This document shows, piece after piece, positions 775 to 52,767 of a stretch of 64,000 nucleotides of DNA. The notes below the pieces were generated by a model. It was not told the origin of the DNA. It saw only the letters and a program-made list of their open reading frames with translations, and made no database searches. The position numbers and the translations under genes were made by a program. How positions within the stretch are numbered: the first letter of the stretch is position 1; every line of letters starts with the position of its first letter. Origin of the DNA: Halomicroarcula saliterrae. Lineage in GTDB: Archaea; Halobacteriota; Halobacteria; Halobacteriales; Haloarculaceae. The DNA is taken from positions 310,001 through 374,000 of the forward strand of contig NZ_JAMQON010000002.1 in NCBI RefSeq assembly GCF_031624395.1, in the 5' to 3' direction.

Positions 775-791
775 GCGACGACCCACACAAT

Positions 792-808
792 CACTACTAA
801 TAATAGTG
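792..808 (-). promoter_or_regulatory. Promoter with embedded palindrome for the Tat lipoprotein
   Basis: This AT-rich element has perfect 5-base inverted arms (CACTA and TAGTG) around a 7-base centre. Read on the minus strand the centre gives TATTATTAG, a TATA-like box about 27 bases upstream of the GTG start. A palindrome on top of the TATA element could also be an operator. The regulator is unknown. Confidence 0.45.
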
Positions 809-913
809 TATACCTCCGCTGGGCCCGTACGTATCGTTTCAGCTACTCTATTCTCATATTTGGTATTGGTTTTATCCGTGGTCCCGGGGTGACCGTGGGG
901 GAGACGAGACCGG

Positions 914-2356: not shown

Positions 2357-2481
2357 AGCTAGAGGATGGTTCGACGACGCCCTAAGCGCACCGGCCGGCG
2401 CTCGGACGGGTCGCTGTAGCCGCTTACCGGTATCGGCGACTCCAGCGGCCGCTTACCGGGCCGTAGCGACGACGGTCCGTC

Positions 2482-3207: not shown

Positions 3208-3295
3208 GCAGGGGGTTCGGCGTGGGGTGATAAAACCGCCGGGGATTCGACGGCCCACGGAACGTGGCGGCGCCGGGAGCCGTGTCGACACGCGC

Positions 3296-4432
3296 TCACA
3301 GAATCGAGACGAGCAGCCAGCCGACACCGAAGACGACCCCCGCCGCGCCCAGAACCTTCGTGACCGCGACGTTCCACTCGGCGGGTTCGACCTCGCTGGC
3401 TCGGGTTGTGCTGCCGATAGCGTCGAGCTGCTCGCTGATTCTCGTGATCTGGTAGGCGTATCTGTACGAGAGCGCGCCGCCGATTGCCAGCAGCGGACCG
3501 AACGCGAGTCCGTTCGCCGTGTCCTCAGACCGGTCCGGAGGGTCGTTCTCGGGGACCGAGTCGGGGTCGATGGGGAACATATCGTCAGTCTCGGCCTCGT
3601 CCGCTGGCGCAGTCGCCCGGCCGGTCGCGGTCGACGACTCGCCGTCGGTCTCGGCGCTCTCGTGGGTGCCGACTCCGATTTCGTCCAGATACGCTCGCCC
3701 GTCGAGTCGGACCGCCCAGGAGGCGTTCCCGTCGCCGGCCTCGACCGCGGCGGTCACGCGGTCCGGCCGCGCCCGCTCGGTGTCCCACAGCGTGACGTGA
3801 ACGGTGCCGTCCGGATACCATCGGACGTCGAAGGCAACGAACCGACCGGACGGGGCGGTGAACCGCTCGCGGTACGTAGTCGCGCCCGTTTCGTTCGTGA
3901 CTACGACGGCCAGTCGGTCGCTGTTCTCCCGACCGACGTTCTCTACGGCGACGGCGGCCGTGGCGTTCGCGTCCGTTCGCTGGACGAAGCGAAGCGCGCC
4001 GTCACGGCCGACATCGACCATCCCGGTGACGCGCCCGCGGTTCGGGTCGACTGTCGCGGCGGTGAGTGTGGCAGTCCGAGCAGCGCCGACACCGAGCGAA
4101 CAGTCCCCGGCCGCGCCGATGCGAAGCGGTTCGCCGTCGGTCCAGTCGGCCGTCGACCGGCCCGAGAGCCCGTCGACGTAGCTGTAGTCGGACGGGTCGT
4201 CCACGAGCCGAGTGGGCTCGTCCGCCGTGGTACAGTTCTGGCCGAACCCGTCCGTCTCAGCGGGACTACCGAACGCCCCGGGCTCGGGAGCCGCTGCGCT
4301 CGTCGGCGGGCTCGGAGGTGCCTGCCCCGGCGCGACCGTCGCAGCCCCGGCGTGGGCCACAGTCGGTACGGTCAGGAGCAAGGCGACGAACGCGACGGCG
4401 TATCGAGTCGTGTGTGAGGACCGGACGGTCAT
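3296..4432 (-). CDS. Secreted, C-terminally membrane-anchored protein of unknown function
   Basis: The 378-residue product begins with a signal peptide (MTVRSSHTTRYAVAFVALLL, cleaved near AHAGA). A Pro/Ala-rich segment and a beta-rich extracellular domain follow, with several Asn-X-Thr sites; DVRWYPDGTVHVTLWD resembles a lectin or concanavalin-like fold. An acidic linker leads to two C-terminal hydrophobic helices, so the domain should sit outside the cell and be tethered. Upstream in-frame residues look like non-coding sequence, hence this start. I do not recognise the family. Confidence 0.75.
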   Translation of the reverse strand: MTVRSSHTTRYAVAFVALLLTVPTVAHAGAATVAPGQAPPSPPTSAAAPEPGAFGSPAETDGFGQNCTTADEPTRLVDDPSDYSYVDGLSGRSTADWTDGEPLRIGAAGDCSLGVGAARTATLTAATVDPNRGRVTGMVDVGRDGALRFVQRTDANATAAVAVENVGRENSDRLAVVVTNETGATTYRERFTAPSGRFVAFDVRWYPDGTVHVTLWDTERARPDRVTAAVEAGDGNASWAVRLDGRAYLDEIGVGTHESAETDGESSTATGRATAPADEAETDDMFPIDPDSVPENDPPDRSEDTANGLAFGPLLAIGGALSYRYAYQITRISEQLDAIGSTTRASEVEPAEWNVAVTKVLGAAGVVFGVGWLLVSIL

Positions 4433-4698
4433 AGTCTGGAGGGGCGGTGGCAACGGCGGTTCCTCGCCGTACACGTACTCCACTACGAGTGACAGTATTC
4501 ACCTTTGTGATTATCGTCGGCCGGTCCGTAATCACTGTCAGCCCGCCGTGATTCCACCGTACGCGCCGCTCACCGGGCGTCCTGTGGGAAAACACCGTCG
4601 CTGCCGTCCCCGTCGCGCCGGGCAGGACTCGCGGGCGAGAGGGCGTCGGAAACGGGACTTCCACAACAGTAAGGTGGTTCGGTGGCAACGGTCCAGTT

Positions 4699-4923
4699 AT
4701 GAGCGACGACATCTCACCGTTGCACCCGCGGATGCGAAAGCCGGCGGTCATCTCACTGGTGTTCGGCCTCGCGCTCGGCTTCCTGGCGATGGGCGCCCAG
4801 CGAATCAGGGGCGGGTCGGGTCAGTCGCTGCCACTCGCAATCGTGCTCGGACTGCTGGCCGCTGCGTTCCTCTTCGGCATCATGTACCGCAACCTCTCCC
4901 AGCACCTCGCCGATCAGGACTAG
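4699..4923 (+). CDS. Small two-helix membrane protein
   Basis: The 74-residue protein contains two hydrophobic helices (about residues 16-33 and 45-62) joined by a short basic/Gly loop, with acidic termini as usual in haloarchaea. It lies alone on the plus strand between two minus-strand genes, and its composition is that of a real membrane protein. No functional family is recognised. Confidence 0.65.
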   Translation: MSDDISPLHPRMRKPAVISLVFGLALGFLAMGAQRIRGGSGQSLPLAIVLGLLAAAFLFGIMYRNLSQHLADQD

Positions 4924-4949
4924 CCGCCGACGGTTGGCTCGCGACCGTC

Positions 4950-5783
4950 TCAGCCCGCGAAGAGAAACAGGACGACGTTGTTCGTCGCCGGCCCGATGCC
5001 GACGGCGGCGACCAGCGAGAGGAGCAGGCTCGCTTCGACGGGGTCGTCGTTGAGGTAGTCGTCCATGAGGACGACGACGCCGGTCGCGACGACGATCTTC
5101 ACGAGGACGAACAGCCACCCGCTACCGATGGCCGCGGCCGTCGGCAGGCTCCCGGCGAACTCCATTATCGCCCGCGGGAGAGGGGAGCGCTCGCTGACTC
5201 CGAGGATGTCGGTCCCGATGGCTGTCGACACCCCGTCGAAGACGTGCGCGAAGACGACGACCGGGGCGGCGTACCGCGCTCGGATGATTAGCGGCGTCCG
5301 CCAGAGCGCCACCGCGAGCACGACGATGGCGGCGACGAACAGCGAGACGAGGACGGCAAGCGCCGGCCAGACGGGCTCGACCAGCCCCGACCGGAGAGCG
5401 GTGATGGCCGACAGCAGCAGGACGACGGTCAGGACGCCCGTGCCCACGAGGCCGAGATTTCGCGAGACGTTCTCGGCGTGGCCGGTGCGGACGCCGAACA
5501 TCGAGAGCAGGAGCCACACCGTCGCCATGGTGTTGAACGTGGTGAGATAGACGGCTGGCGTCCCGAACAGCGGCGAAAGCGTCGCGTCGTACAGCTCGAT
5601 GGGCGGCTGGTTGAGCGCGTGGAGGGCACCCCCCAGTGCCATCCACGGTGCCAGGGCGACGACAGTCCGCTGGTCGACAGGGGGCTCCAGTGCGACCAGC
5701 AGCGCCGCGAGCAGGACCACCCCGCCCAAGAGCACGACCAGATACGGCAGCGGTGGCAACCCAAAGCCCGTCGGCAGTACCAT
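4950..5783 (-). CDS. DUF63 family polytopic membrane protein
   Basis: The 277-residue, almost entirely hydrophobic protein has about eight predicted membrane helices. Polar signatures typical of the archaeal DUF63 family include ALGGALHALNQPP and VFAHVFDGVSTAIGTD, where the His-Val-Phe-Asp-Gly motif is intramembrane and conserved. The function is not established. The start MVLPTGFGLP lies just before the first helix and is divergent from deoC, about 80 bases away, so the two may share a promoter region. Confidence 0.82.
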   Translation of the reverse strand: MVLPTGFGLPPLPYLVVLLGGVVLLAALLVALEPPVDQRTVVALAPWMALGGALHALNQPPIELYDATLSPLFGTPAVYLTTFNTMATVWLLLSMFGVRTGHAENVSRNLGLVGTGVLTVVLLLSAITALRSGLVEPVWPALAVLVSLFVAAIVVLAVALWRTPLIIRARYAAPVVVFAHVFDGVSTAIGTDILGVSERSPLPRAIMEFAGSLPTAAAIGSGWLFVLVKIVVATGVVVLMDDYLNDDPVEASLLLSLVAAVGIGPATNNVVLFLFAG

Positions 5784-5866
5784 ATCCCCCACGCCGCTCC
5801 CGGGCGACGAAAAGGTTCCGGCCTGTTCGTCGGGACGTTTAGGTACGTGCCTTCTGTGGAGGTGGT

Positions 5867-6499
5867 ATGGACGACGTTCCCGACCGCATCGAGCACACAG
5901 TGCTGGGGCCGACGACGGGCCCGAGCGACGTTCGCGCCTGTCTGGACACGGCACTGCAGTACGGCATGCGGGCCTGCGTGCCACCGTGGGCGCTCCCGCT
6001 CGCGACCGACTACGCCAACGTTCCGCTGACGGCGGTCATCGACTTCCCGCACGGCCAGGGGGCGACCGACGCCGTCTGTGCGGCGGCCCGGGCGGCGTGG
6101 GACGACGGGGCCGACGAACTCGACGTGGTCTGTAACGTCGGGCGCCTGCAAGCCGGCGACGACGAGGCCGTCCGAGAGCACCTCTCGGAGGTCGTCGCCG
6201 GGGTGCCGATCCCGGTGAAGGTCATCGTCGAGGCCCCGCTGCTGACCGACGCGGAGCTCCACCGAGTCGGCCAGCTGGTCGCGGACAGCGACGCGGACTA
6301 CCTGAAGACCGCGACGGGCTTCTCGGAGGGCGGCGCGACCGTCGAAGACGTCGCGACGCTGAGTCAGTACCGGCCGGTGAAAGCCAGCGGCGGCATCGGC
6401 TCGTGGGCCGAGGCCGAGGCGATGTTCGACGCCGGGGCCGACCGCATCGGCGCCTCCAGCGGCGACCGCATCGTCGAGGAGTGGCGGGAGGAGGGGTAA
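5867..6499 (+). CDS. deoC: Deoxyribose-phosphate aldolase
   Basis: This 210-residue DeoC/LacD-type TIM barrel splits 2-deoxyribose-5-phosphate to acetaldehyde and glyceraldehyde-3-phosphate. Diagnostic motifs are DELDVVCNVG, PVKVIVEAPLL, DYLKTATGF (Schiff-base lysine) and PVKASGGIGSW (second conserved lysine). It would act downstream of nucleoside phosphorylases such as the one at 2.5 kb. The stop codon overlaps the start of the next small gene by one base, so they are probably one transcript. Confidence 0.92.
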   Translation: MDDVPDRIEHTVLGPTTGPSDVRACLDTALQYGMRACVPPWALPLATDYANVPLTAVIDFPHGQGATDAVCAAARAAWDDGADELDVVCNVGRLQAGDDEAVREHLSEVVAGVPIPVKVIVEAPLLTDAELHRVGQLVADSDADYLKTATGFSEGGATVEDVATLSQYRPVKASGGIGSWAEAEAMFDAGADRIGASSGDRIVEEWREEG

Positions 6500-6726
6500 T
6501 GGGCTTCCTGACGGCTCTGGTCGATGCGACACCGCTCGCTGTACTCGTGGCCGTCGCCGCGACGTGGGCGACGACTGTCAGCGCGAGCCTGCCGCCGCTG
6601 CTGGTCGGTCCGCTCGCTGGGCTCGCCGTCCTCGCGGCCGGGACGATGCTGAGCCTCCGCTACCAGACAGACGAGCGACGGTTCCCGGTCTTCAGAGTGG
6701 TGTTCGAACTCCTGACGTTCTGGTGA
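6499..6726 (+). CDS. Small membrane protein coupled to deoC
   Basis: The ATG uses the last base of the deoC stop codon (TAATG), a classic coupled start. The 75-residue product has two hydrophobic segments (about 5-28 and 33-52) followed by a basic turn and a short amphipathic tail ending FELLTFW. No family is recognised. Coupling argues that it is real and co-expressed with deoC. Confidence 0.65.
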   Translation: MGFLTALVDATPLAVLVAVAATWATTVSASLPPLLVGPLAGLAVLAAGTMLSLRYQTDERRFPVFRVVFELLTFW

Positions 6727-6857
6727 GCGGGTGAGCAGCGGCGAGTCGAGGGACGCACCGTCTGGTTGTCGGTTCCCGGAAGCAGGCTCGGCAGTCCCGG
6801 CGGGGACGGCCAATCCGTCGCACTTTTGCCCGCAAAGATACTGCTTCCAAGCAAGCG

Positions 6858-8141
6858 ATGGCCCGCTATCACATCGAGACGTACGGGTGCACCTCCAACA
6901 GAGGTGAGACCCAGCAGATAGAGCAGGCGCTCCGCGAGGGCGGCCACCACCCGGCCGAGGACCCGCAGTCGGCCGACGTGGCCATCCTCAACACCTGCAC
7001 GGTGCTGGAGAAGACCGAGCGCAACATGCTCAGCCGGGCCAGAGAGCTGGACGACGAGACGCCCGCCGACCTCGTCGTCACGGGGTGTATGGCGCTGGCA
7101 CAGGGCGAGGAGTTCCGCGAGGCCGGCCTCGACGCCGAGGTGCTCCACTGGGACGACGTGCCACAGTACGTCCTCAACGGGGAGTGCCCGACGGTCACGC
7201 CCGACACGGAGACGGTCATCAACGGCGTCGTCGGCATCCTCCCCATCGCGCGGGGCTGTATGTCGGACTGCTCGTACTGCATCACGAAGCAGGCGACCGG
7301 CCGCATCGAGTCGCCGTCCGTCGACGAGAACGTCGCGAAGGCCCGCGCGCTGGTCCACGCCGGCGCGAAGGAGCTCCGGATTACGGGCCAGGACACCGGC
7401 GTCTACGGCTGGGACACGAATCAGGGAACCAGCCTCCTCCCGGAGCTGCTGGACCGCATCTGCACCGAGATCGAGGGCGACTTTCGGGTCCGGGTCGGGA
7501 TGGCGAACCCGAAGGGGCTCCACGGCGTCCGCGAGGAACTCGCGGCGGTGTTCGCCGAGCACGACGAGCTGTACAACTTCATCCACGCCCCGGTCCAGTC
7601 CGGCAGCGACGACGTGCTCGCCGAGATGCGTCGCCAGCACAGCGTCTCCGAGTACCTCGACGTCGTCGACGCGTTCGACGACGCGCTCGACTACTGGACC
7701 CTCTCGACGGACTTCATCGTCGGCTTCCCGACCGAGGAGCCCGCCGACCACGAGCAGTCGATGGCGCTGCTGCGCGAGACCGCGCCGGAGAAGATAAACG
7801 TCACCCGCTTCTCGAAGCGGCCCGGCACCGACGCCGCCGACATGAAGGGGCTCGGCGGTCAGACGAAGAAGGACCGCTCGAAGGCGATGAGCGAGCTGAA
7901 GATGGACGTGGTGGGCGCGGCCCACGAGGAGATGGTCGGCCGTACCTCGTCGGTGCTGCTGGTGGAGGACGGCACCGACGAGTCGCTGGTGGGCTACGAC
8001 GAGGCCTACCGGCAGGTCGTCATCGTCGACGCCGAGGAACGCGGGCTGGAAGTCGGCGACACCGTGGACGTGGAGATAACGAGTCACAGCACCGTCTACG
8101 CCTTCGGCGAGCCGGTCGAGCGCGCGCCGCTCGCGGACTGA
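6858..8141 (+). CDS. MiaB-type tRNA methylthiotransferase (archaeal e-MtaB class)
   Basis: This 427-residue radical-SAM enzyme has an N-terminal methylthiotransferase domain with three cysteines (C11 in YGCTSN, C47 in NTCTV, C77 in TGCMA) binding one iron-sulfur cluster. The radical-SAM motif CxxxCxxC is at residues 134-141, and a TRAM RNA-binding domain covers about 370-420. The family adds a methylthio group to t6A37 of tRNAs reading ANN codons, giving ms2t6A. Length and order match the archaeal/eukaryotic CDKAL1-like branch. Confidence 0.92.
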   Translation: MARYHIETYGCTSNRGETQQIEQALREGGHHPAEDPQSADVAILNTCTVLEKTERNMLSRARELDDETPADLVVTGCMALAQGEEFREAGLDAEVLHWDDVPQYVLNGECPTVTPDTETVINGVVGILPIARGCMSDCSYCITKQATGRIESPSVDENVAKARALVHAGAKELRITGQDTGVYGWDTNQGTSLLPELLDRICTEIEGDFRVRVGMANPKGLHGVREELAAVFAEHDELYNFIHAPVQSGSDDVLAEMRRQHSVSEYLDVVDAFDDALDYWTLSTDFIVGFPTEEPADHEQSMALLRETAPEKINVTRFSKRPGTDAADMKGLGGQTKKDRSKAMSELKMDVVGAAHEEMVGRTSSVLLVEDGTDESLVGYDEAYRQVVIVDAEERGLEVGDTVDVEITSHSTVYAFGEPVERAPLAD

Positions 8142-8442
8142 GGAACGGGTAAGCCCGTGGGCCGCGGAACCACTCCGAAATTACCGGGAGTAAGCTGGCT
8201 GCGCGACGCGGCTAGGCCGACCCTCACGGCATCGCGCGGAAACGCGCGGACGCCACACCGCACGGAAACGACCGTCTGTCCGTCGCCGTGAGCGAACGGA
8301 CGCGGCCGGTAATGGCCCCGTACGAGCGCGACGACCCTACCCGATAGAACGTCAGCACGCAAGCGGGGCCACGCTCGGAGTACCCGCAGCCACCCGAGCG
8401 ATGGCGGTTTATAACTAATTCGCTGTGACGACAACGGCTCTC
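8142..8442. other. 301-base gene-free interval with a GNRA-type hairpin
   Basis: No convincing protein gene is visible on either strand. The most structured part is a perfect 6-base-pair CGCGCG stem closed by a GAAA tetraloop at 8233-8248. The right end holds the promoter of the next gene. The left part could be a 3' untranslated region or a small RNA, and I cannot decide between them. Confidence 0.4.
8408..8414 (+). promoter_or_regulatory. TATA box deciding the start of the SELENBP1-like gene
   Basis: The element TTTATAA is centred about 32 bases before the ATG at 8443. A haloarchaeal TATA box places transcription some 25 bases downstream, which fits a near-leaderless message starting at 8443. 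It excludes the upstream in-frame GTG at 8425, which would lie too close to the box. Confidence 0.6.
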
Positions 8443-9834
8443 ATGGCAACGGACCACTCACACGACCACGAGCGGACGGACCACGCCCACCACGACCACA
8501 GCGGTCCGGGCTACATGACGCCTCAGGCGGCCGTCGAGAACGCCCCGCGGGAGCGCCTCGCCTACGTGATGGGGAACCACGTCGGTATCGACGAGACGGC
8601 GCCGGACTTCCTCGCCGTCGTCGACGTCGACCCCGACTCGGACAGCTACTGCCAGCTCGTCGACCGCGTCGACCTGCCGAACGTCGGCGACGAGCTCCAC
8701 CACTTCGGCTGGAACGCCTGCTCCTCGTCCTGTCACATCGGCGGGCTGGAGCGGCGGTATCTGGTCGTCCCCGGAAACCGGAGTTCGCGTCTCCACATCG
8801 TCGACACCGAGGACCGCGAACACCCCGAGATAGCGAAAGTCATCGAGCCCGAGGCGGTCCACGAGTACGACCTCTCGGCGCCCCACACGGTCCACTGCAT
8901 CGGCGGCGGGACCGTCGTCATCTCGATGCTGGGCGACGCCGACGGCGACCTCCCGGGCGGGTTCCTCGAACTCGACGACGAACTGAACGTCAAAGGGCGA
9001 TGGGACCCGGCCGGCGAAATCGACTTCAACTACGACTTCTGGTACCAGCCGCGACACGACGCGATGGTCTCCTCGGAGTGGGCCGCCCCGAAGACCTACC
9101 AGCCCGGCTTCGACATCGAGGACGTCGAGGCGGGCAACTACGGCCACGAACTCCAGTTCTGGAGCTGGGAAGACCGCAAGGTCGAGCAGACGGTCGACCT
9201 CGGCGAGGAGGGGTTGATTCCGCTCGAAGTCCGCTTCCTCCACACGCCCGAACACGCCCACGGGTTCGTCGACGCGGCGCTGTCGTCGAACATCTTCCAC
9301 TTCTGGAAGCGCGACGGGGAGTGGCACACCGAGAAGGTCATCGACTTCGAGAGCCGTGAGCTGGAGGGGTGGGACATGCCGGTGCCGGCGCTGCCGACTG
9401 ACATCCTCGTCTCGATGGACGACCGCTACCTCTACGGCGGGAACTGGCTCCACGGCGAGCTGTGGATGTACGACATCTCCGACCCGGCGAACCCGCGCCA
9501 CGCCGACTCCCTCTCCGTCGGCGGCTACTTCGGCGACGTCCAGGAACTGCAGGGCCGCGACATCGTCGGCGGCCCCCAGATGCTCCAGCTGAGCCTCGAC
9601 GGCGAACGGCTCTACTGGACCACCTCGCTGTACTCCACGTGGGACGACCAGTTCTTCCCCGAAGAGGCGGAGAAGGGGTCCGTGATGCTGAAAGCCGACG
9701 TGGACCCCCGCCGCGGGACGATGACGCTCGACGAGGAGTTCCTCGTGGACTTCGGCGACCTGCCGGACGGCCCGGCCCGCGCCCACGAGATGCGCTGGCC
9801 CGACGGCGACTGCACGAGCGACGTCTGGGAGTGA
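8443..9834 (+). CDS. SELENBP1/SBP56-family protein (methanethiol oxidase-like)
   Basis: The 463-residue protein is full length for this beta-propeller family. It has the near-N-terminal cysteine region GWNACSSSC, the histidine-bearing segments SAPHTVHC and HTPEHAHGF, and the family-typical terminus RAHEMRWPDGDCTSDVW. Characterised relatives are copper-dependent methanethiol oxidases converting methanethiol to formaldehyde, hydrogen sulfide and hydrogen peroxide. The first 19 residues carry seven histidines, an unusual extension that may bind metal. A ferredoxin follows 12 bases downstream, then a DUF2182 membrane protein, so a redox or metal-supply module is likely. Substrate is inferred. Confidence 0.88.
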   Translation: MATDHSHDHERTDHAHHDHSGPGYMTPQAAVENAPRERLAYVMGNHVGIDETAPDFLAVVDVDPDSDSYCQLVDRVDLPNVGDELHHFGWNACSSSCHIGGLERRYLVVPGNRSSRLHIVDTEDREHPEIAKVIEPEAVHEYDLSAPHTVHCIGGGTVVISMLGDADGDLPGGFLELDDELNVKGRWDPAGEIDFNYDFWYQPRHDAMVSSEWAAPKTYQPGFDIEDVEAGNYGHELQFWSWEDRKVEQTVDLGEEGLIPLEVRFLHTPEHAHGFVDAALSSNIFHFWKRDGEWHTEKVIDFESRELEGWDMPVPALPTDILVSMDDRYLYGGNWLHGELWMYDISDPANPRHADSLSVGGYFGDVQELQGRDIVGGPQMLQLSLDGERLYWTTSLYSTWDDQFFPEEAEKGSVMLKADVDPRRGTMTLDEEFLVDFGDLPDGPARAHEMRWPDGDCTSDVWE

Positions 9835-9846
9835 GTCGGGTCGGCG

Positions 9847-10158
9847 ATGTCGACGCTCAGACTCGCGTGGCGAGACGGGCGGACGGCCGCCGTCGAGGAC
9901 CCGGAGGGGACGGTGCTCGACGCCGCCGAGGCCGCCGGGCTGGCACTCCCCTTTGGCTGTCGCACGGGCGCCTGTGGCACCTGCACCGGGCGCGTGCTCG
10001 CGGGCGAAGTGAGCCACGACCGGCGGCCGCGCGCGCTCAAGCGGCGCCACCTCGACGACGGCTACGTGCTGCTCTGTATCGCCACGCCCGACGGCGACTG
10101 CGCGGTCGAAGTCGGTGCCGAGGTGAAACGCGACCTGCTGGCGAACCCGTTCAGATAG
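9847..10158 (+). CDS. Plant-type [2Fe-2S] ferredoxin
   Basis: The 103-residue protein has the ferredoxin cluster pattern: C38, C43 and C46 (CRTGACGTC) and C77. It lacks the long acidic insertion of the major haloarchaeal ferredoxin and is shorter, so it looks like a specialised electron carrier. It sits 12 bases after the SELENBP1-like gene and 15 bases before the DUF2182 gene, most likely in one operon. Confidence 0.9.
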   Translation: MSTLRLAWRDGRTAAVEDPEGTVLDAAEAAGLALPFGCRTGACGTCTGRVLAGEVSHDRRPRALKRRHLDDGYVLLCIATPDGDCAVEVGAEVKRDLLANPFR

Positions 10159-10173
10159 CCACTCAGCGATACC

Positions 10174-10965
10174 ATGCCCCTGCTCGAACAACTGACCACG
10201 CACTCGCGCCAGTCGACGGCCACCGTCGCCGTCGGCACCTATCTCGTCGCAGCACTGGCGTGGCTGGCGCTCGTCCTGCACGACCCGCTCGAACACGCTC
10301 TCGTCGGCCACTCGGTGCTCGGGAGCCACGGCGGGCCGGGCGTCGCCGAGACCACCGCCGTCGCAGACGGCACCCTCGGCGTCGTCCACTACCTGCTGAT
10401 GTGGGGCCTGATGATGGTGGCGATGATGTACCCCTCGACTGCGGCGGCGTTCCAGTGGTACGCCGACCGTCAGCGCCGCCGGCCCGACGCTGGACCGGCT
10501 ACGGCCGTGCTCGCCTTCGTCGCCAGCTACACGCTCCTGTGGGTCGCCGTCGGCGTCGCCCCCCTCGCCGTCGTCGCGCTCGTCCCGCTGGGCACGGTCG
10601 CGGCCGCCCTCGGCCCGGCGTATCTCGGTGTCGCGCTGCTGGCCGTCGGCGGGTTCCAGCTATCGCCGGTCAAACGCCGGTCGTTACGGGCCTGTCGCTC
10701 CCCAGCGGGGTTCCTCCCGCCCGGCACCGAGGACCGACGCCCCGCCAGCCTAGGGTGGCAGTTCGGCCGGCAGGACGTCGCCGCCTGCGGCGTGCTCATG
10801 GCCCTGATGGTCGTCGTCGGCTCGATGAATCTGGGCTGGATGGCGCTCATCACAGTCGTCCTCTCGCTGGAACGGCTGACGGACCACGGAGAACGGTGGG
10901 CCCGGTGGACCGGCTACGTCGCCGTGGGGAGCGGTGTGGGTCTGCTCGCGCTCGCCGCGCTGTGA
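10174..10965 (+). CDS. DUF2182 predicted metal-binding membrane protein
   Basis: The 263-residue protein has about six to seven membrane helices and the family hallmark WGLMMVAMMYPS, a Met-rich intramembrane motif suggesting soft-metal (for example copper) binding. It is the third gene of the SELENBP1-like operon. A role in delivering metal to the copper-dependent partner is attractive but inferred from context only. Confidence 0.8.
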   Translation: MPLLEQLTTHSRQSTATVAVGTYLVAALAWLALVLHDPLEHALVGHSVLGSHGGPGVAETTAVADGTLGVVHYLLMWGLMMVAMMYPSTAAAFQWYADRQRRRPDAGPATAVLAFVASYTLLWVAVGVAPLAVVALVPLGTVAAALGPAYLGVALLAVGGFQLSPVKRRSLRACRSPAGFLPPGTEDRRPASLGWQFGRQDVAACGVLMALMVVVGSMNLGWMALITVVLSLERLTDHGERWARWTGYVAVGSGVGLLALAAL

Positions 10966-10993
10966 GTCGGCTCTGTGCGGGGCTCACGCCGGC

Positions 10994-11389
10994 CTACTCG
11001 CCCCGGTAGGCCTCGTGTAGGAACGCCAGCGCCGCGCCGAACATCGCGAGGTTGCCAAAGAACGCCAGTCGCTCGCCGTCGCGGTCGTCCGGGTCGGCGT
11101 TCCAGAAGTCGTGCATCGTCAGGGTCACGACCCCGAGGAAGCTGGCGACGGCGCCGGTCGCGACGCGGGGGAGCCGCCAGAACGCGACGCCAAGTCCGCC
11201 GACGAGCATCATCCCCGAGGCCATCGGGGCGAGGAGGTCCGGCAACGGGACGCCCGCCGACTCCGCGTACTCGATGGTGTCGTCCATATCCCGGAAGTCT
11301 TCGGAGGCCTGCAGCGCCATCCCGAGCCCGAAGACGAGGCGTCCGAGTCTGAAGTTCGTGCTCTCGCTGTCCGCCGACTCGTCTGTCAT
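10994..11389 (-). CDS. DoxX-like small membrane protein
   Basis: The 131-residue protein has four hydrophobic helices with the DoxX-like pattern: RLVFGLGMALQASEDF at the first helix, an acidic loop, and GMMLVGGLGVAFWRLPRVATG at the next. DoxX relatives have been tied to quinone-linked redox in membranes. It converges on the DUF2182 gene with a 28-base gap. The start MTDESADSES is the first plausible one after a promoter-like region. Confidence 0.7.
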   Translation of the reverse strand: MTDESADSESTNFRLGRLVFGLGMALQASEDFRDMDDTIEYAESAGVPLPDLLAPMASGMMLVGGLGVAFWRLPRVATGAVASFLGVVTLTMHDFWNADPDDRDGERLAFFGNLAMFGAALAFLHEAYRGE

Positions 11390-11430
11390 ACCACAGTACA
11401 CGGTATCATGACCCATAAACTTCGAGCCGA

Positions 11431-12345
11431 TTATTCCAAATCGGAGAGCCGTTCCACCTCGTCGTCGGCCTTCCACTCGCCCAGCTCTCTGGGGTCGACG
11501 TGGACGAACACGTCGTCGACCTCCGGCAGGGCCTGTATCGACTGGATGACCTCGGTCTCGATGTCGTGGGCCTCGTTCAGCGTCAGTTCGCCCTCGACCT
11601 CGATGTGGAGGCTCACGTCGATTTCGGGGCCGACGTAGTGGGCGATGACGTCGTGGGCGCCCTCGACTCGCGGGTGGGAGAGGGCACGTTCGAGGATCTC
11701 CCGGCGGAACTCCTCGGGCGGCGCGGCGCCGACGAGATAGTCGACGTTGTCCCGGACGACCTCGACGCCGGTGTAGAGGATGCCGACGGCGACGACGATG
11801 GCCGCGAGCGGGTCCGCGAGCGGGTAGCCGGCGGTCGCGCCGAGCACGCCGACCAGCGCCGCCCCCGCCGTCAGGATATCGTTGCGGTTGTCCTTGGCCG
11901 TCGCGACCAGCGCGGGGGAGTTGCGGTCGGTCCCCGCGGCCAGACAGTACCGGTAGAGCCCGTACTTCGCGGCGGCCGACAGCAGGAGGACACCGACGGC
12001 GACGGGGCCCTGCGTGACCGAGATATCGCCGGTGAGCAGCGCTCGACCGGCCTGCCAGAGGACGACGCCGCCGGCGAAGAAGATGCCGGCGGCGACGAAC
12101 AGCGAGACGAACGGCTCGATGCGCTCGTGGCCGTGCGGGTGCTCGAAGTCCGGCGGCCGGGTCGTCAGGTAGAGCCCGGCGACGATGACGAGCGAGTAGG
12201 CGGTGTCGGCGGCGCTGTTTACCGCCTCGCTCTGGATGGCCAGACTCCCCGTCGTGACCCAGACCGCGCCTTTCAGCGCAGCGAGCGCGAGGTTCACGCC
12301 CAGAACGAGCAGCCCGACCCGCCGGAGTGTGCCACGGCGAGACAT
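11431..12345 (-). CDS. Cation diffusion facilitator (possibly manganese-type)
   Basis: The 304-residue CDF exporter has six membrane helices and a C-terminal cytoplasmic ferredoxin-like domain (about 205-295). The transport-site pairs are N-x-x-x-D in helix 2 (VNSAADT) and D-x-x-x-D in helix 5 (KDNRND), instead of the His/Asp pair of zinc exporters. I recall such Asn/Asp-Asp/Asp sites from manganese-exporting CDFs, so Mn(II) or Fe(II) is more likely than zinc. The cytoplasmic domain keeps histidines that could sense metal. Confidence 0.88.
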   Translation of the reverse strand: MSRRGTLRRVGLLVLGVNLALAALKGAVWVTTGSLAIQSEAVNSAADTAYSLVIVAGLYLTTRPPDFEHPHGHERIEPFVSLFVAAGIFFAGGVVLWQAGRALLTGDISVTQGPVAVGVLLLSAAAKYGLYRYCLAAGTDRNSPALVATAKDNRNDILTAGAALVGVLGATAGYPLADPLAAIVVAVGILYTGVEVVRDNVDYLVGAAPPEEFRREILERALSHPRVEGAHDVIAHYVGPEIDVSLHIEVEGELTLNEAHDIETEVIQSIQALPEVDDVFVHVDPRELGEWKADDEVERLSDLE

Positions 12346-12369
12346 CTGTTCGAGAGTAGTCAGTGCCGA

Positions 12370-12927
12370 CTAAAGCCCCTTCGGAGGCGCGTCGACGCGA
12401 ACGGCGGCATCGGCCCCCACGACGCTGGTGCCGTCCTGCTCGGCGAAGGCGTCGTGGATGCGGTCGTAGCTATCGTCGACCGCCTCGACGATGACCTGCG
12501 TGTCGCCCACGACGGGCATGAAGTTGGTGTCGCCCTCCCATCGCGGGACGACGTGGGTGTGGAGGTGGTCGTCGATGGAACCGCCCGCGGCCTTCCCGCC
12601 CAGATTGAGCCCGGCGTTGAACCCATCGGGTGAGAGCCCCCGCTCCAGGGCGTCGAACGCCCGCTGTTTCAGCCGGGCGTGGTCGAGCAGCGTCTCGTCG
12701 TCCAGCGCCCCGTACTCGCCGGTGTGCGTGTGGGGTATCACCATCACGTGGCCCGGGCTGTAGGGGTAGTTGTTCAACAGGACGAAGGCGTGGTCGCTCC
12801 GGGCGACCACTCGGTTCTCGCGGTCGGTCTCGGCGTCCCGGAACGCACAGAACACACAGTCGGCGTCCGGGTTCTGCTCCTCCCGTTCGACCCACTCGAT
12901 GCGCCACGGCGCAAACACGCTCTCCAT
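12370..12927 (-). CDS. HIT-family nucleotide hydrolase/transferase
   Basis: The 185-residue protein has a zinc-type CVFC pair near residues 24-27, as in Fhit/Ap4A-phosphorylase-like archaeal members, and the histidine triad HLHTHVVPRW near residue 120. The NNYPYSPGHVMVIPHTH strand is typical. It likely hydrolyses dinucleoside polyphosphates or AMP-linked adducts. The stop lies 24 bases from the CDF start, so the two minus-strand genes may be co-transcribed. Confidence 0.9.
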   Translation of the reverse strand: MESVFAPWRIEWVEREEQNPDADCVFCAFRDAETDRENRVVARSDHAFVLLNNYPYSPGHVMVIPHTHTGEYGALDDETLLDHARLKQRAFDALERGLSPDGFNAGLNLGGKAAGGSIDDHLHTHVVPRWEGDTNFMPVVGDTQVIVEAVDDSYDRIHDAFAEQDGTSVVGADAAVRVDAPPKGL

Positions 12928-13130
12928 ACAGGACGCTCCGCCCGCCGGTCCAAAACCACTTCGACCGGCGCGGGCCCATATTTAAATTTTTCGGCCGTTC
13001 AGGCGGTTGCGTCCGATATCACGGTTTGAGAACGACCGCTAAGCGCTCTGTCGCCCGCGCAGACCCTCGACCGCTCTGTCCGGTTGTTGTCGGGCGATAA
13101 ACGGTCTGAACGAAGGACAACGGTAGACTG

Positions 13131-13139
13131 TTTTTATAC
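13131..13139 (+). promoter_or_regulatory. TATA box of the zinc-ribbon gene
   Basis: A T-rich element (TTTTTATAC) is centred about 30 bases before the ATG at 13166, the expected archaeal TATA position for a nearly leaderless transcript. The rest of the 238-base gap upstream shows no gene. Confidence 0.5.
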
Positions 13140-13165
13140 TCTAATCGGCGCGAATCAGGGACGAG

Positions 13166-13363
13166 ATGGCCACGACAAACGACGGGGTCGACATGTCAGA
13201 GGCGTGTGCGGACTGCGGTCGCGACACCCCCCACACGGTCAGCGTCCAGATACAGACCGAGAGCAGCAAGACCGAGAACGCGGAGTTCTCCCGCGAACCG
13301 TACCGGGTGAGCGAATGCCGGGTCTGTGGCGAGACGACGAGTACGCGGATGAACAACGCATAG
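13166..13363 (+). CDS. Small haloarchaeal zinc-ribbon protein (DUF7835-like)
   Basis: The 65-residue protein has two Cys pairs, CADC near residue 15 and CRVC near 52, consistent with a zinc beta-ribbon. The central segment SKTENAEFSREPYRV is one I associate with a small conserved haloarchaeal family. Small zinc ribbons often bind nucleic acid or protein partners, but the role is unknown. A good TATA box precedes it. Confidence 0.8.
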   Translation: MATTNDGVDMSEACADCGRDTPHTVSVQIQTESSKTENAEFSREPYRVSECRVCGETTSTRMNNA

Positions 13364-13528
13364 ACGGCCTGTTTCTACCGTTCGACTCCCGGGCAGCCGT
13401 CGGCTCGCCAGTCGCGAGCTTCGGACGGCGGAGCGCGAGTCACGCGCTGGCAGCGCCCGGGACCGGGGCTCCGCTCACGGATGGCCTCGCCACCCGTTCG
13501 CCTTTCACGGTCGTAAGCGACCGCGCTA

Positions 13529-48179: not shown

Positions 48180-49739
48180 TTACTCCACCAGCGGTTCGCC
48201 GGTCATCTCCTCGGGCTGGTCGATGTCGACGAGCGAGAGCATCGTCGGCGCGAGGTCGGCCAGCGTGCCGCCGTCGCGGGCCGACCGTCCGGCGGCGGTC
48301 CCGTCGGGCGCGACGTAGATGAACGGCACCGGGTTCGTCGTGTGTGCGGTGTGGGGGTCGTCCTCGGTCCCCATGTCGTCGGCGTTGCCGTGGTCGGCAC
48401 AGACGAGGACGTGCCCGCCGGCGTCGTGGATGGTCTCGACCAGCCGGCCGAGCTGTTCGTCGACGGCCTCGACGGCGGTGGTCGCCGCGTCGAAGTCGCC
48501 CGTGTGGCCCACCATGTCGGGGTTGGCGTAGTTCAACACCAGGGCGTCGGGGTCCTCCGTCTCGATGACGTCGATAGCGGTGTCGGTGACGCCGGGGGCG
48601 CTCATCTCGGGCTGGAGGTCGTAGGTCGGCACGTCCGGGCTCTGGACGATTTCGCGGCGCTCGCCCTCGAACTCCACTTCGCGCCCGCCGTTGAGGAAGT
48701 AGGTGACGTGCGGGTACTTCTCGGACTCGGCCAGCCGAAGCTGGGTCAGGCCGGCGGTCGAGAGCACCTCACCGTAGGTCTGCTCGGGCTGGTTCGGCGG
48801 GAAGGCGACGGGGAGGTCGAAGGTGCTGTCGTACTGCGTCATCGTGACCATCCGGATGGTCGGCGGCTCGGTGTCGGCGCCCCACGCGTCCGGGCGGATG
48901 TTCGCGAGCAGCCGGGTGAGCTGGCGGGCGCGGTCCGAGCGGAAGTTGAAGAAGATAGCCGCGTCGCCGTCGGCCATCCCCTCGTAATCGCCGACGACGG
49001 TCGGCTCGATGAACTCGTCGGTGGTGTCGCGGGCGTACGATTCGGTGGTGGCCGTGACGGCGGCGCCGACCTCGTGGTCGCCGTCGGCGTCGACGACGGC
49101 GTCGTAGGCCCGGCGGGTGCGCTCCCAGTTCTGGTCGCGGTCCATGGCGTAGTAGCGGCCGGTGACCGTCGCGACGTGGCCGGTACCGTGTTTCTCGGCG
49201 TGGGACGCGAGCTGGGAGAGGTACCCCTCGCCGCCCTTCGGCGAGGTGTCGCGTCCGTCGGTGAAGGCGTGGGTGACCGCCTCCGTCCCGCGCTCGTCGG
49301 CGAGTTCGATGAGCGCGTGGAGGTGGTCCTGATACGAGTGGACGCCGCCGTCGGAGACCAGACCCATGAAGTGGACTGTGCCGTCGTTGGTCTCGGCGTA
49401 GTCGAAGGCAGACAGGATCTGTTCGTTCTCGAAGAAGGGCGGGTCCTGGTCGTCCTCGTCGGGCGGGCTCGTCCCACGCGACCGGGCGACGGCGTCGCTG
49501 ACGCGCGCGGAGTCCTGCTTGACGACGCGGCCGGCGCCGATGTTGAGGTGGCCCACCTCGCTATTGCCCATCTGGCCCTCGGGCAGTCCGACGCGGCGCC
49601 CGTGTGTCGTCAACGTCGAGTCCGCGCCCGCCTCGCGGTACCGGTCGAAGTTCGGTGTCTCGGCCGCGGCCACGGCGTCCCGTGCGTTCTCGTCCGGATT
49701 CAGTCCCCAGCCATCGAGGATTACGAGCCCGACTTGCAT
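48180..49739 (-). CDS. gpmI: Phosphoglycerate mutase, cofactor-independent
   Basis: The 519-residue di-manganese enzyme interconverts 3- and 2-phosphoglycerate. It starts MQVGLVILDGWGLNPDEN, has the nucleophile serine motif MGNSEVGHLNIGAGR near residue 60, and carries the second-half metal motifs NYANPDMVGHTGD and CADHGNAD. It converges on kptA with five bases between stops. The start was chosen by homology; upstream codons are unrelated. Confidence 0.95.
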   Translation of the reverse strand: MQVGLVILDGWGLNPDENARDAVAAAETPNFDRYREAGADSTLTTHGRRVGLPEGQMGNSEVGHLNIGAGRVVKQDSARVSDAVARSRGTSPPDEDDQDPPFFENEQILSAFDYAETNDGTVHFMGLVSDGGVHSYQDHLHALIELADERGTEAVTHAFTDGRDTSPKGGEGYLSQLASHAEKHGTGHVATVTGRYYAMDRDQNWERTRRAYDAVVDADGDHEVGAAVTATTESYARDTTDEFIEPTVVGDYEGMADGDAAIFFNFRSDRARQLTRLLANIRPDAWGADTEPPTIRMVTMTQYDSTFDLPVAFPPNQPEQTYGEVLSTAGLTQLRLAESEKYPHVTYFLNGGREVEFEGERREIVQSPDVPTYDLQPEMSAPGVTDTAIDVIETEDPDALVLNYANPDMVGHTGDFDAATTAVEAVDEQLGRLVETIHDAGGHVLVCADHGNADDMGTEDDPHTAHTTNPVPFIYVAPDGTAAGRSARDGGTLADLAPTMLSLVDIDQPEEMTGEPLVE

Positions 49740-49787
49740 ACTCGAAGGGTCACACGAACGGCGTAATAGCGCTTCGGTCGCCACAGT

Positions 49788-50110
49788 GTGACGGCCGGCG
49801 GCGAATTCGACACCGCAGCCATCGACGTCGTCGAGTGGGAGACTGGCCAGACCGAGTGCGCGCTAACCTACGCCACGGCGGAGAGAAGTAACAAGGCTAT
49901 CGGCGACGAAATCTGAGAGGTCGCCAGGCAGTACGCGTCGGCCGCCGATATCGGGACCCAGCGGCTGACTGCAACAGTTACCGATGGGACCCAGACGGTG
50001 GCCACGTGGCACATCCGTAGCGAGTGGTTGGACCAGTTCGAGGACGGGACGCTCTCCGTGGGGAGTTTGAACGAAAGGTAGTGGGAACGCTCTCTCTCTC
50101 AGCGGCTGCC
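49788..50110 (+). pseudogene. Broken duplicate of the receptor-like protein's C-terminal domain
   Basis: From the GTG at 49788 this encodes a close relative of residues 323-420 of the 50635-51897 product. Shared segments are SNKAIGDEI, IGTQRL and QTVATWHIRSEWL. A TGA at 49914-49916 stops it where the intact copy has Arg, probably from CGA. A frameshift near 50065 breaks the end, and homology then resumes as FERKVVGT in another frame. Two codons are also missing near 49945. It is non-functional or, at most, a short peptide. Confidence 0.88.
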
Positions 50111-50133
50111 AGCGAGCCGTTCGCGGTCCGAGT

Positions 50134-50162
50134 CCGGACGCACGATTTGTCGTGCCGTCCGG
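50134..50162. repeat. Strong 12-base-pair hairpin after the pseudogene
   Basis: Left arm CCGGACGCACGA (50134-50145), loop TTTG, right arm TCGTGCCGTCCGG (50150-50162). Pairing is complete apart from one bulged base. It could be a terminator-like stem, an end of a lost mobile element or a protein-binding site. Confidence 0.65.
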
Positions 50163-50464
50163 TGGCATTCGGGACGCGATGCAGTGACTGGGGGACTGTT
50201 CAGCGTGTGTGAACCGTGGGGTAGATATGGCACATACCTTGCCGAGCCACGACTGCCCGACGGACTGGTTCCACACGCAGCACGGGTGGCCCTCCGATAC
50301 TGCGTGGGTCTCGCCGCGTCGTCGTACTGATGGATTCACACCAACAGGGACGCGAAATATTTTAGTGTAGTTTGAGTAAATTTTATTCACGCAAATTTAA
50401 GTACACGCGATTGCTTTCTCCAGAGGAGTAATGTTCGGCTGGCGCCGGTGTGGGGAGGGAACCT
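50163..50464 (+). promoter_or_regulatory. AT-rich control region of the receptor-like operon
   Basis: This 302-base gap has no convincing gene. Its right half (50350-50405) is much richer in A and T than the surrounding DNA and holds TATA-like ATTTAAG and AATATTTTAG elements. A 14-codon mini-frame (50431-50475, MFGWRRCGEGTYDR) overlaps the next gene's start. A GGGGAGGGA Shine-Dalgarno-like site at 50453-50461 precedes the ATG at 50465. Confidence 0.5.
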
Positions 50465-50638
50465 ATGACAGATGACGGACCGACAGTTCAGGACACAGCA
50501 GAGCCGATAGACGACGCCGACGAGAACGAGCCGGTGACCACGGCCACCGCGGACAGGGGTCGGTCGGGCAGCAGTACGTGGCCCGGGCGGAACCTGCTCG
50601 AACCCGTCGACAACTGGCAGAACAGTGGGGCCGAATGA
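50465..50638 (+). CDS. Acidic mini-protein coupled to the receptor-like gene
   Basis: The 57-residue product is hydrophilic and acidic in its first half, ending with a Trp-containing segment (TWPGRNLLEPVDNWQ). It has a good Shine-Dalgarno-like site, and its stop overlaps the next ATG (ATGA). It may be a small regulator or mainly serve to couple translation. The family is not recognised. Confidence 0.55.
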   Translation: MTDDGPTVQDTAEPIDDADENEPVTTATADRGRSGSSTWPGRNLLEPVDNWQNSGAE

Positions 50639-51897
50639 AACGGACGCTGTATGGTGTCGTCGCCGTGGTACTCGTCGCGGTACTCGCAGCGCCGGCGGTA
50701 GCTGAGCCGGCGACCACGTCGATAACCGGCCCGACCCAGGTGCAGCCCGGCGACACGGTCACGTACACGTTCACCGTGACGAACACCGGCGGGAACGAGA
50801 GCGGCTACCTGCTGGACGCCACCCTGCCCGACGGCTGGGCGATAGTCGAGCGGAGCGACGACGGTGGTCGGTGGAAGGCCTCGGAGAACCAGTGGCTCTG
50901 GCTGTCGATAGAGCCTGATATCACGAAGGCGACCTCACTCACGCTCTCGGTACCGGCCAACACGAGCGCCAGTAGCGTGACAGTCACGTCCCGGGCCTCC
51001 AATAGCGACGGGCTGCAGGACGTCGCGACCAAAGAGGTGACTGTCGAGGACGACGACGGGTCGGGCGGCGGCGGGTCCGACGACGGCGGGACCTATGGCG
51101 GCGGGTCGGATGACGGTGGCCCCTCCGACAGTGAGGCGAACGCTACCGGCAGTGAGGCGAACGCCGCCACCGACAGTGAGACGAACGCCGCCACCGACAG
51201 TGAGCAGAACACCGCGACCGGCAGTGAGCCAGACCCCAGCACCGAGAGCGAAGCGGTCGGTACAGCGGGCGGCTCCGCGTCCGAGCCCACCGACGAGTCC
51301 GCGACGGACAGCGCGTCCGAGACCGGCGACGAAGCGGGGGCTTCGGACACTGGAGGCGGGACGAACACCGCCCTCGGGATGGGGATCGGAGCACTGGTGG
51401 TGCTTGCTGTCGGGGTCGGTATAGGTACCGCCCGGTGGAACGCGGCTGGCGAGTCGGCGGCGACTGACACCGCGAGTGGCGACGTGGAAGCCGAGTCCGG
51501 GACGACCGCGAGTGACGACGTGGAAACCGAGTCCGGGACGACCGCGAGTGGCGCTACCGACGACGGCGTGTCGGCGTCAGGTGACGAGGGCGGAACGGGG
51601 GACATCGACGTGCTCGATTTACAGAAGGGATCGGCCGAGTGTACGATCACGTATTCGACGGCCGAGACGAGCAACAAAGCGATCGGTGACGAGATACGGG
51701 AGATAGCGCAGGGCTACGCCTCGGCCGGCGCCGACGATATCGGAACCCAGCGGTTAGAGGCGACGATTACCGACGGGGAGCAGACGGTGGCCACGTGGCA
51801 CATCCGCAGCGAGTGGCTGTGCCAGCTCGAAAACGGGGAACTGTCCGCGGAGACGTTCGAACGGAAGGTGCTGGGGACGATCTGTTTCAGTAGCTGA
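50635..51897 (+). CDS. Receptor-like membrane protein with conserved C-terminal domain
   Basis: The 420-residue protein has a signal peptide (about 1-24) and an outer CARDB/NEW3-like beta-sandwich domain (about 25-138: GPTQVQPGDTVTYTFTVTNTG). A Gly/Ser/Asp then Asn/Thr/Ser-repeat linker (140-240) leads to one membrane helix (246-264). Inside, a second linker with a doubled 12-residue repeat (283-306) is followed by a compact domain (323-420). That last domain is duplicated as the upstream pseudogene, so it is a mobile module in its own right. Function is unknown; the layout suggests outside sensing or adhesion with inside output. Confidence 0.78.
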   Translation: MKRTLYGVVAVVLVAVLAAPAVAEPATTSITGPTQVQPGDTVTYTFTVTNTGGNESGYLLDATLPDGWAIVERSDDGGRWKASENQWLWLSIEPDITKATSLTLSVPANTSASSVTVTSRASNSDGLQDVATKEVTVEDDDGSGGGGSDDGGTYGGGSDDGGPSDSEANATGSEANAATDSETNAATDSEQNTATGSEPDPSTESEAVGTAGGSASEPTDESATDSASETGDEAGASDTGGGTNTALGMGIGALVVLAVGVGIGTARWNAAGESAATDTASGDVEAESGTTASDDVETESGTTASGATDDGVSASGDEGGTGDIDVLDLQKGSAECTITYSTAETSNKAIGDEIREIAQGYASAGADDIGTQRLEATITDGEQTVATWHIRSEWLCQLENGELSAETFERKVLGTICFSS

Positions 51898-51998
51898 AAC
51901 GGGTCGTCTCGCCGCTCGGTACCGGCGGCAGGTGGCCAGTTCCGTCCGGAAGGGGGTGGCGAGGCGACTCCGAGCCTGGGTAACTACTAAGTGGGTGT

Positions 51999-52031
51999 GT
52001 AAAGTACACTTTACTGTAAAGCGTGCTTTCC
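51999..52031 (+). promoter_or_regulatory. Tandem palindromic operator over a promoter
   Basis: A perfect 7+2+7 palindrome (GTAAAGTACACTTTAC, 51999-52014) is followed, 17 bases later in register, by a near-copy (GTAAAGCGTGCTTTCC, 52016-52031). The second copy spans the position where the TATA box of the gene at 52051 should be. Two turns on nearly one face suggest cooperative binding of a dimeric regulator. Confidence 0.65.
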
Positions 52032-52050
52032 ACCACGTGCTACACAGAAT

Positions 52051-52302
52051 ATGACGACTGCACACGAACGACGTACTGACCGCCTGACGAACTGGTCCCA
52101 CAGAACCGCACTGGCGTTGCTGACTGCCACGCTTCTGGTCGGCTCGCTGTCGACCGTCGCGATGTCGCTTGGCGACCCCGAACTGCTCGCGCTGCTCGCG
52201 GCGGTGGGCTGTGGCCTCGCGCTGCTGGGCATCGGGCTGACCGCGATGACACAGCGCCGTATCGCGGCGTCGAACCGGCGCGCGTCTCCCGACGCGGCGT
52301 AG
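52051..52302 (+). CDS. Small two-helix membrane protein under the palindrome
   Basis: The 83-residue protein has two hydrophobic helices (about 19-40 and 44-65) with polar or basic ends. It starts 20 bases after the tandem palindrome, so a leaderless transcript controlled there is likely. The family is not recognised. Confidence 0.65.
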   Translation: MTTAHERRTDRLTNWSHRTALALLTATLLVGSLSTVAMSLGDPELLALLAAVGCGLALLGIGLTAMTQRRIAASNRRASPDAA

Positions 52303-52374: not shown

Positions 52375-52767
52375 ATGACGCGAAATATCCTCTCGGACGA
52401 TCTGGCCGACAGCATCGTCACGACAGCGCGGACGGCCACGGGCGACTCGCTGCGGTCGGTGACGTACTTCACCCGGGCGAACTTCGAGCAGCTGTATCTA
52501 CGCGAGGACCTGGAACAGGACGCCGATCTCAACGACTTCGTCGGCCACGAGTGGCAGGGGTACAAACAGACCAAGAACGCCTACCAGGACTCCGAGCTGG
52601 GCGAGTACCGGTTCACGGTGCGGGCCTTCGAGAACGGCTATCTGCTGCGGGCGACCACGGAGCGACAGGGCGTGCTCATCACCACCGACGGGCTCTCGAT
52701 GGGCTCCTACGAGGAGATCGCCGAGGCCATCGAACGGCTCCTGCGCGAGGAGTCGGGCAAGGAATAG
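52375..52767 (+). CDS. Conserved soluble haloarchaeal protein (DUF7522-like)
   Basis: The 130-residue acidic alpha/beta protein has segments such as FTRANFEQLYLREDLE and YRFTVRAFENGYLLRATTERQGVLITTD, a layout I associate loosely with small haloarchaeal proteins of a roadblock-like type. An earlier in-frame ATG at 52354 exists. The TATA-like GGTTAAGAG at 52342-52350 gives correct leaderless spacing only for 52375. The function is unknown. Confidence 0.7.
   Translation: MTRNILSDDLADSIVTTARTATGDSLRSVTYFTRANFEQLYLREDLEQDADLNDFVGHEWQGYKQTKNAYQDSELGEYRFTVRAFENGYLLRATTERQGVLITTDGLSMGSYEEIAEAIERLLREESGKE

Follow-up and report, generated by a model that had tools for sequence, protein, structure and literature searches.

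A haloarchaeal locus that probably encodes the membrane-bound partner of a two-gene cassette for surface docking

We analysed a 64,000-nucleotide stretch of the Halomicroarcula saliterrae genome (contig NZ_JAMQON010000002.1, positions 310,001 to 374,000), here called the window and used for all positions unless otherwise indicated. Judging from sequence comparisons, the locus around a 420-residue membrane protein probably represents one half, the membrane-bound one, of a two-gene cassette for surface docking of a non-canonical cohesin/dockerin type. Because in relatives the gene is the second of a coupled pair with an exported protein, a docking or anchoring role is better supported than that of a free-standing sensor. 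Within the family (146 genomes), close relatives of the C-terminal domain (C-domain) of this protein were found in just two further genomes, namely G028, which is of the same genus and encodes three full-length receptors (two of them named R1 and R2 below), and G081, which is of another genus. In these relatives the exported protein is a giant ending in a module that we call the W-tail. The features of the locus are as follows.

48180..49739, minus strand: 2,3-bisphosphoglycerate-independent phosphoglycerate mutase (PGM), the conserved left neighbour (TIGR01307, 674 bits)
49779..49791, no strand: putative deletion junction between the PGM 5' flank and a receptor C-domain, placed by similarity limits
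49783-50108, plus strand: decayed copy of the receptor C-domain (DNA alignment, translation, whole-genome protein search)
50340..50440, plus strand: AT-rich stretch, probable promoter of the 57-residue ORF/receptor operon (GC 0.45 for 50300-50440 against 0.64-0.65 on both sides)
50465..50638, plus strand: 57-residue ORF, internal-deletion remnant of a giant exported W-tail gene (both ends match the giant; ends ...LLEPVDNWQNSGAE)
50635..51897, plus strand: receptor/anchor protein, 420 residues (signal-like N-terminus, NEW3, linker, membrane helix, C-domain)
50728..51000, plus strand: NEW3/DUF11 domain, proposed socket for dockerin-like tails (PF01345 and PF10633 matches)
51361..51426, plus strand: single membrane-spanning helix (hydropathy match starting at residue 243)
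51601..51894, plus strand: C-domain, no Pfam family (predicted beta-beta-alpha-beta-beta-alpha-alpha)
51988..52055, no strand: conserved AT-rich element 3' of the receptor (82% over 68 nt against G028 R1, 76% over 49 nt against R2)
52375..52767, plus strand: DUF7522 gene, the conserved right neighbour (PF24366, E 9.8e-56)

An earlier note, made from the DNA letters alone, had proposed for the intact protein an outer NEW3/CARDB-like domain, one membrane helix, repeat-rich linkers and an inner C-domain, and this layout is supported. The N-terminus is signal-peptide-like, the linker is rich in repeats and in Ser, Asp and Gly, and there is one later hydrophobic helix, from residue 243. The ectodomain exceeds the cut-offs of both PF01345 (37.7 bits, cut-off 24.6) and PF10633 (34.2 bits, cut-off 24.4), which makes it a member of NEW3/DUF11; CARDB alone falls below its cut-off. 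Where it differs from the known NEW3/DUF11 families is in its pairing with dockerin-like tails. Comparison with G028 R1 gave dN/dS values of 0.40 for NEW3 and 0.23 for the C-domain, indicating purifying selection on both. We also see that the AT-rich element downstream of the receptor recurs behind both R1 and R2 of G028.

The relatives supply the missing partner. G081 shows, in this order, the PGM 5' flank, the giant gene for the exported protein, the receptor gene and DUF7522. The series in G028 is longer, with PGM, giant, receptor R2, PGM fragment, 79-codon ORF, receptor R1 and DUF7522, so that G028 carries a tandem duplication of the cassette. In the window we find PGM, a decayed C-domain, a 57-codon ORF, the receptor and DUF7522, with the last gene at the same position as in both relatives and with PGM region DNA 88.6% identical to that of G028. 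The giants of G028 and G081 comprise 1340 and 1441 residues, respectively, with a Tat-type N-terminus and G8, CEMIP beta-helix, PKD and plastocyanin-like domains, joined by PA14 in G081, and they end in the W-tail, a module of about 60 residues with the consensus SIxEAIDxDDDGxIDDxEILDAVxYWxxxEPVPGTdGETIxDxxLLxLVexWQ. At every cassette in these two genomes the junction from giant to receptor is a 4-nt ATGA overlap. The 79-codon ORF of G028 consists of the giant's Tat signal joined to its tail via an internal deletion.

The 57-residue ORF of the window is coupled in the same manner, its TGA overlapping the receptor ATG (ATGA). Its last 13 residues match the G028 remnant (a score reached by none of 200 shuffles), its inner stretch PVTTATAD..TW matches the giant N-terminus (reached by 1 of 200 shuffles), and DNA homology to the ends of the giant genes starts at 50597. 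By these matches the ORF is the start and end of a giant exported gene, whose body would have been lost by internal deletion. A functional small protein was considered and is not favoured, as the ORF has no domain match and carries both ends of the giant. The low-GC stretch that the earlier note called a control region is present upstream of this ORF, where it most plausibly serves as the operon promoter.

The decayed copy of the C-domain at 49783-50108 is real, as the earlier note had claimed, and the similarity survives a proper alignment, in which 235 of 321 aligned bases are identical to the intact domain (73%, score 256); no other 360-nt segment of the window exceeds 67, and 200 shuffles reach 49 at most. 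Translated from 49791, the copy reads ...TECALTYATAERSNKAIGDEI, a stop, EVARQYASAADIGTQRLTATVTDGTQTVATWHIRSEWLDQFEDGTLSVGSLNER and a second stop, and is recognisable as the domain of residues 323-420. Each of the lesions previously listed could be located: the in-frame stop is a TGA at 49914-49916, the two-codon deletion removes 6 nt at 49940/49941, and the frameshift is a 1-nt deletion at 50064/50065, with an additional small indel near 50090. A whole-genome protein search recovered the copy independently (64% amino acid identity, E 4.7e-31, one TGA). Compared with the intact copy it still shows a low dN/dS (0.24), and GC at third positions has not changed, so that it probably remained functional until recent times. 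Directly after it lies a bulged GC-rich hairpin (50134-50162, CCGGACGCACGA / TCGTGCCGTCCGG), probably the hairpin mentioned in the earlier note; the IS-like remnant also mentioned there was not found in the flanks, without IS-database comparison.

The earlier note had taken the decayed copy to result from duplication of the inside domain only, and this part of its reading is not supported. We consider such an event quite unlikely, even though the NEW3 half is untraceable beside the copy and the copy groups with the window/G028 R1 type rather than with R2. A whole second cassette occupies the same place in G028, where tandem copies including a PGM fragment are present, and the decayed copy begins where the similarity upstream of PGM ends: that similarity stops at 49779 against G028 and at 49788 against G081, and domain similarity begins at 49783-49791. 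A deletion remnant is therefore the simpler reading, and the copy is best read as the stub of a second cassette that would have been deleted up to the C-domain of its receptor. Orthology to G028 R2 was rejected, as the tree places the copy with the window/R1 type, without strong support, suggesting that the lost cassette was not simply the orthologue of R2.

The W-tail alone was searched in 293 genomes of the order and the next gene was read. NEW3 genes lie directly downstream of W-tail genes in families f8, f17, f4 and f6 and also in that of the window. Over all loci analysed, 21 distinct pairs were counted, mostly of overlapping or abutting genes and including four genera outside the seed family, and the order of W-tail before NEW3 spans at least five haloarchaeal families. 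Every adjacent pair was typed by best profile, with profiles partly seeded from these adjacent genes; among them W-tail genes precede NEW3 in 15 cases and cohesin in none, and dockerin genes precede cohesin in 13 and NEW3 in none. Restricting the count to non-seed loci leaves about five W-tail/NEW3 pairs against six dockerin/cohesin pairs, still with no cross pairs. Tail and socket genes are spaced by 10 nt or less in 19 of 28 pairs, 11 of which show a 4-nt overlap, and the window keeps only a remnant of its tail gene. The same 4-nt overlap is seen in canonical pairs of dockerin and membrane-anchored cohesin genes in the same genus; in the canonical pair tested, the type I dockerin scored 21.2 bits, just below the 22.9 cut-off. 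Distances among tails and among NEW3 domains are correlated (Mantel r 0.81, 21 pairs), which is partly expected from linked inheritance and could arise in the absence of contact, and the two are enriched together with an odds ratio of 12.6 (p 1.4e-8), within regions chosen for tails. Outside the family, roughly half of the W-tail genes have no adjacent NEW3 gene, and several genes for NEW3 membrane proteins, including two paralogues in the window's own genome, have no adjacent tail gene. In one locus (L108 of G073, 6671-8044) the NEW3 partner has beta-propeller-like repeats and no predicted membrane helix, so membrane anchoring is not common to all socket proteins.

Known cohesin-dockerin pairs (PF00963/PF00404) include noncellulosomal archaeal ones (Bayer 1999; Peer 2009, both as cited in PMC9012536). 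The system described here resembles them in that the gene for an exported protein ending in a two-fold EF-hand-type module lies beside one for a membrane-bound beta-sandwich protein, with the 4-nt overlap of the haloarchaeal dockerin/cohesin pairs. It differs in that the family profiles match neither of the partners, a single calcium loop is retained in the W-tail, and NEW3 takes the place of cohesin. The two-fold repeat of the W-tail was recovered by aligning half against half (shuffle p of 0.001 or less in all seven tails tested), and the calcium ligands DxDxDG are in the first half only, the second half reading VPGTDGETI. The W-tail did not match PF00404 (dockerin type I), giving only weak EF-hand matches, so it was rejected as a plain dockerin in the sense of family membership; in profile-profile comparison with haloarchaeal dockerins it reached 36%, over only 27 columns.

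On the socket side, the NEW3 domain of the window alone gave no match to PF00963. Profile-profile comparison of NEW3 with haloarchaeal cohesin gave a probability of 88.9% (PKD control 0.6%), but the 44% obtained for NEW3 against PKD means that part of this similarity comes from the Ig-like sandwich that they have in common. For a naturally occurring fusion of NEW3 and tail, a structure model (pLDDT 78, pTM 0.56) matches several cohesins with Z of 8.1-9.4, with 2w1n, 6kgf, 5aoz, 5m2s and 5n5p at 8.3-9.4, and matches sialidase NEW3, integrin and other Ig-like folds equally. The predicted fold is compatible with a cohesin-like NEW3 socket, and is not proof of one. We found no description of the pairing in the literature searched, which largely omits subscription papers, and pairing of NEW3 with dockerin-like tails appears to be undescribed in the searchable literature.

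In the mechanism we propose, gene 1 would make a large Tat-exported protein (with G8/CEMIP-like beta-helix, PKD, PA14 and plastocyanin-like domains) bearing the 60-residue W-tail at its C-terminus, and the translationally coupled gene 2 would supply a protein with NEW3 outside the cell, followed by an extended flexible linker and a single membrane helix, to which this lineage adds a small domain in the cytoplasm, such that exported protein and socket would be produced from one message. NEW3 would grip the W-tail outside the membrane as cohesin grips dockerin, perhaps in a calcium-dependent manner, the linker and helix would keep the docked protein at the cell surface, and the inner C-domain may signal that the socket is occupied. 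In the genome analysed here, deletion would have left nothing of the second cassette but the decayed C-domain at 49791-50108, and the remaining cassette would have lost the body of gene 1, its 57-residue leader still coupled to gene 2. If this is true, the pseudogene and the tiny ORF of the window become one history, in which the exported half of a surface pair was lost.

Two other accounts of the pairing were weighed. It is unlikely, in our estimation, that the NEW3 membrane protein is a stand-alone receptor, its NEW3 domain binding a small ligand or a glycan and its C-domain passing on the signal, with the pairing reflecting co-regulation in surface or polysaccharide operons. Sialidases and galactosidases are known to carry NEW3 domains, purifying selection acts on NEW3 and C-domain alike despite the lost cis partner, and no copy of the lineage lacks the C-domain apart from the frameshifted one of G081, all of which would suit a receptor. 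However, the C-domain is missing from most NEW3 membrane partners of W-tail proteins, the exported partners are very diverse whereas the tail/NEW3 combination is constant, and the 15:0 and 0:13 segregation from dockerin/cohesin pairs also argues against this account. Smaller still is the chance that the W-tail is a C-terminal sorting or processing signal, and that the NEW3 protein serves it in the membrane as a chaperone or transfer factor and not as a durable anchor. This would agree with the C-terminal position of the tail in most pairs, the tight gene coupling and the membrane partner, but the tails have an internal repeat and an EF-hand loop, typical of folded docking modules, they are also found inside longer proteins, and the relay operons described below terminate in a membrane protein with a cohesin-like domain.

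If the receptor still docks anything, the docking reading offers a possible trans partner. The window's own genome has a single intact W-tail, on a G8/CEMIP/PKD protein at G000:C1:185658 (locus L104, G000:C1:178000-192000, 7656-11063), with no adjacent NEW3 gene, and the cohesin profile PF00963 had no match anywhere in this genome. G8 and CEMIP beta-helix domains (PF10162, PF24606) are found on the G028 and G081 partners and on this orphan W-tail protein, whereas the partner gene in the window is cut to 57 codons; no enzymatic activity is implied.

The C-domain is an add-on to the anchor, and possibly an occupancy reporter, since among anchors it is confined to this small lineage and a frameshift cuts it off in G081. 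In that genome the frameshift lies between helix and C-domain (L037, 5603-5795), as an assembly error or a natural loss. The domain alone gave no Pfam match at E up to 10 and no Foldseek match at E 0.001 or better, and searches of Pfam, NCBIfam, PDB sequences and PDB folds returned nothing convincing; the best fold match, to the sex-pheromone cAM373 family, was discounted because its Z of 6.8 is within the range of common arrangements. A query of genome contigs with the domain returned no relative. Distant kin do exist, in the form of a 121-residue protein beside an aldehyde-oxidoreductase-like gene in many genomes of the same family, which at 22-38% identity is a distant homologue of the receptor C-domain, and in the form of lipoproteins. 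These kin are soluble stand-alone proteins or lipoproteins, and the receptor C-domain is instead tethered to the membrane by a helix. The 121-residue family (L008-L021 and similar loci) is conserved, has no Pfam membership and also occurs near a small MoaD-like gene. An apparent link to cohesin, from a match beside C-domain kin in G065, was dropped because the two are separate genes on opposite strands. The earlier suggestion that the domain is reused by other proteins is supported, and of the receptor-like reading as a whole the layout, the decayed copy and the domain reuse hold, while the exported partner was missed and the domain-only duplication is not supported.

Two operons of family f17 chain these modules together, in the order W-tail giant, NEW3..W-tail protein, protein with two NEW3 domains and a dockerin, and cohesin-like membrane protein (four genes each; L194, G161:C4:210000-228000, 1288-13382, and L195, G256:C8:178000-197000, 488-11950). 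The dockerins of one of the two and of a similar operon score 40 and 27 bits, over the Pfam cut-off; the terminal domain is cohesin-like by our own profile only and not by Pfam. The relay order would run from W-tail protein to NEW3..W-tail adaptor, to NEW3..dockerin adaptor, to cohesin membrane anchor. We offer tentatively, as a possibility short of probable, that W-tail and NEW3 form a second haloarchaeal plug-and-socket code beside dockerin and cohesin, that operons chain the two codes into ordered relays, that tails may also dock on NEW3-bearing S-layer-like proteins, and that the anchor of the window lineage signals inward. If true, an archaeal non-canonical cohesin/dockerin-like code, missed by profile searches, displays very different exported proteins, with the testable rule that a W-tail gene is often followed by the gene for its socket. 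Such a code would also be a possible explanation for the ordering of large exported proteins on the haloarchaeal surface, and would provide a salt-stable set of protein connectors. Docking of EF-hand-tailed proteins onto S-layer-like proteins is a possible reading of four loci (L202, L203, L204 and L205). Each encodes a large S-layer-like protein that has NEW3 at its N-terminus and a PGF-type helix at its C-terminus, and the genes before them encode exported proteins or two-NEW3 adaptors with EF-hand-like tails.
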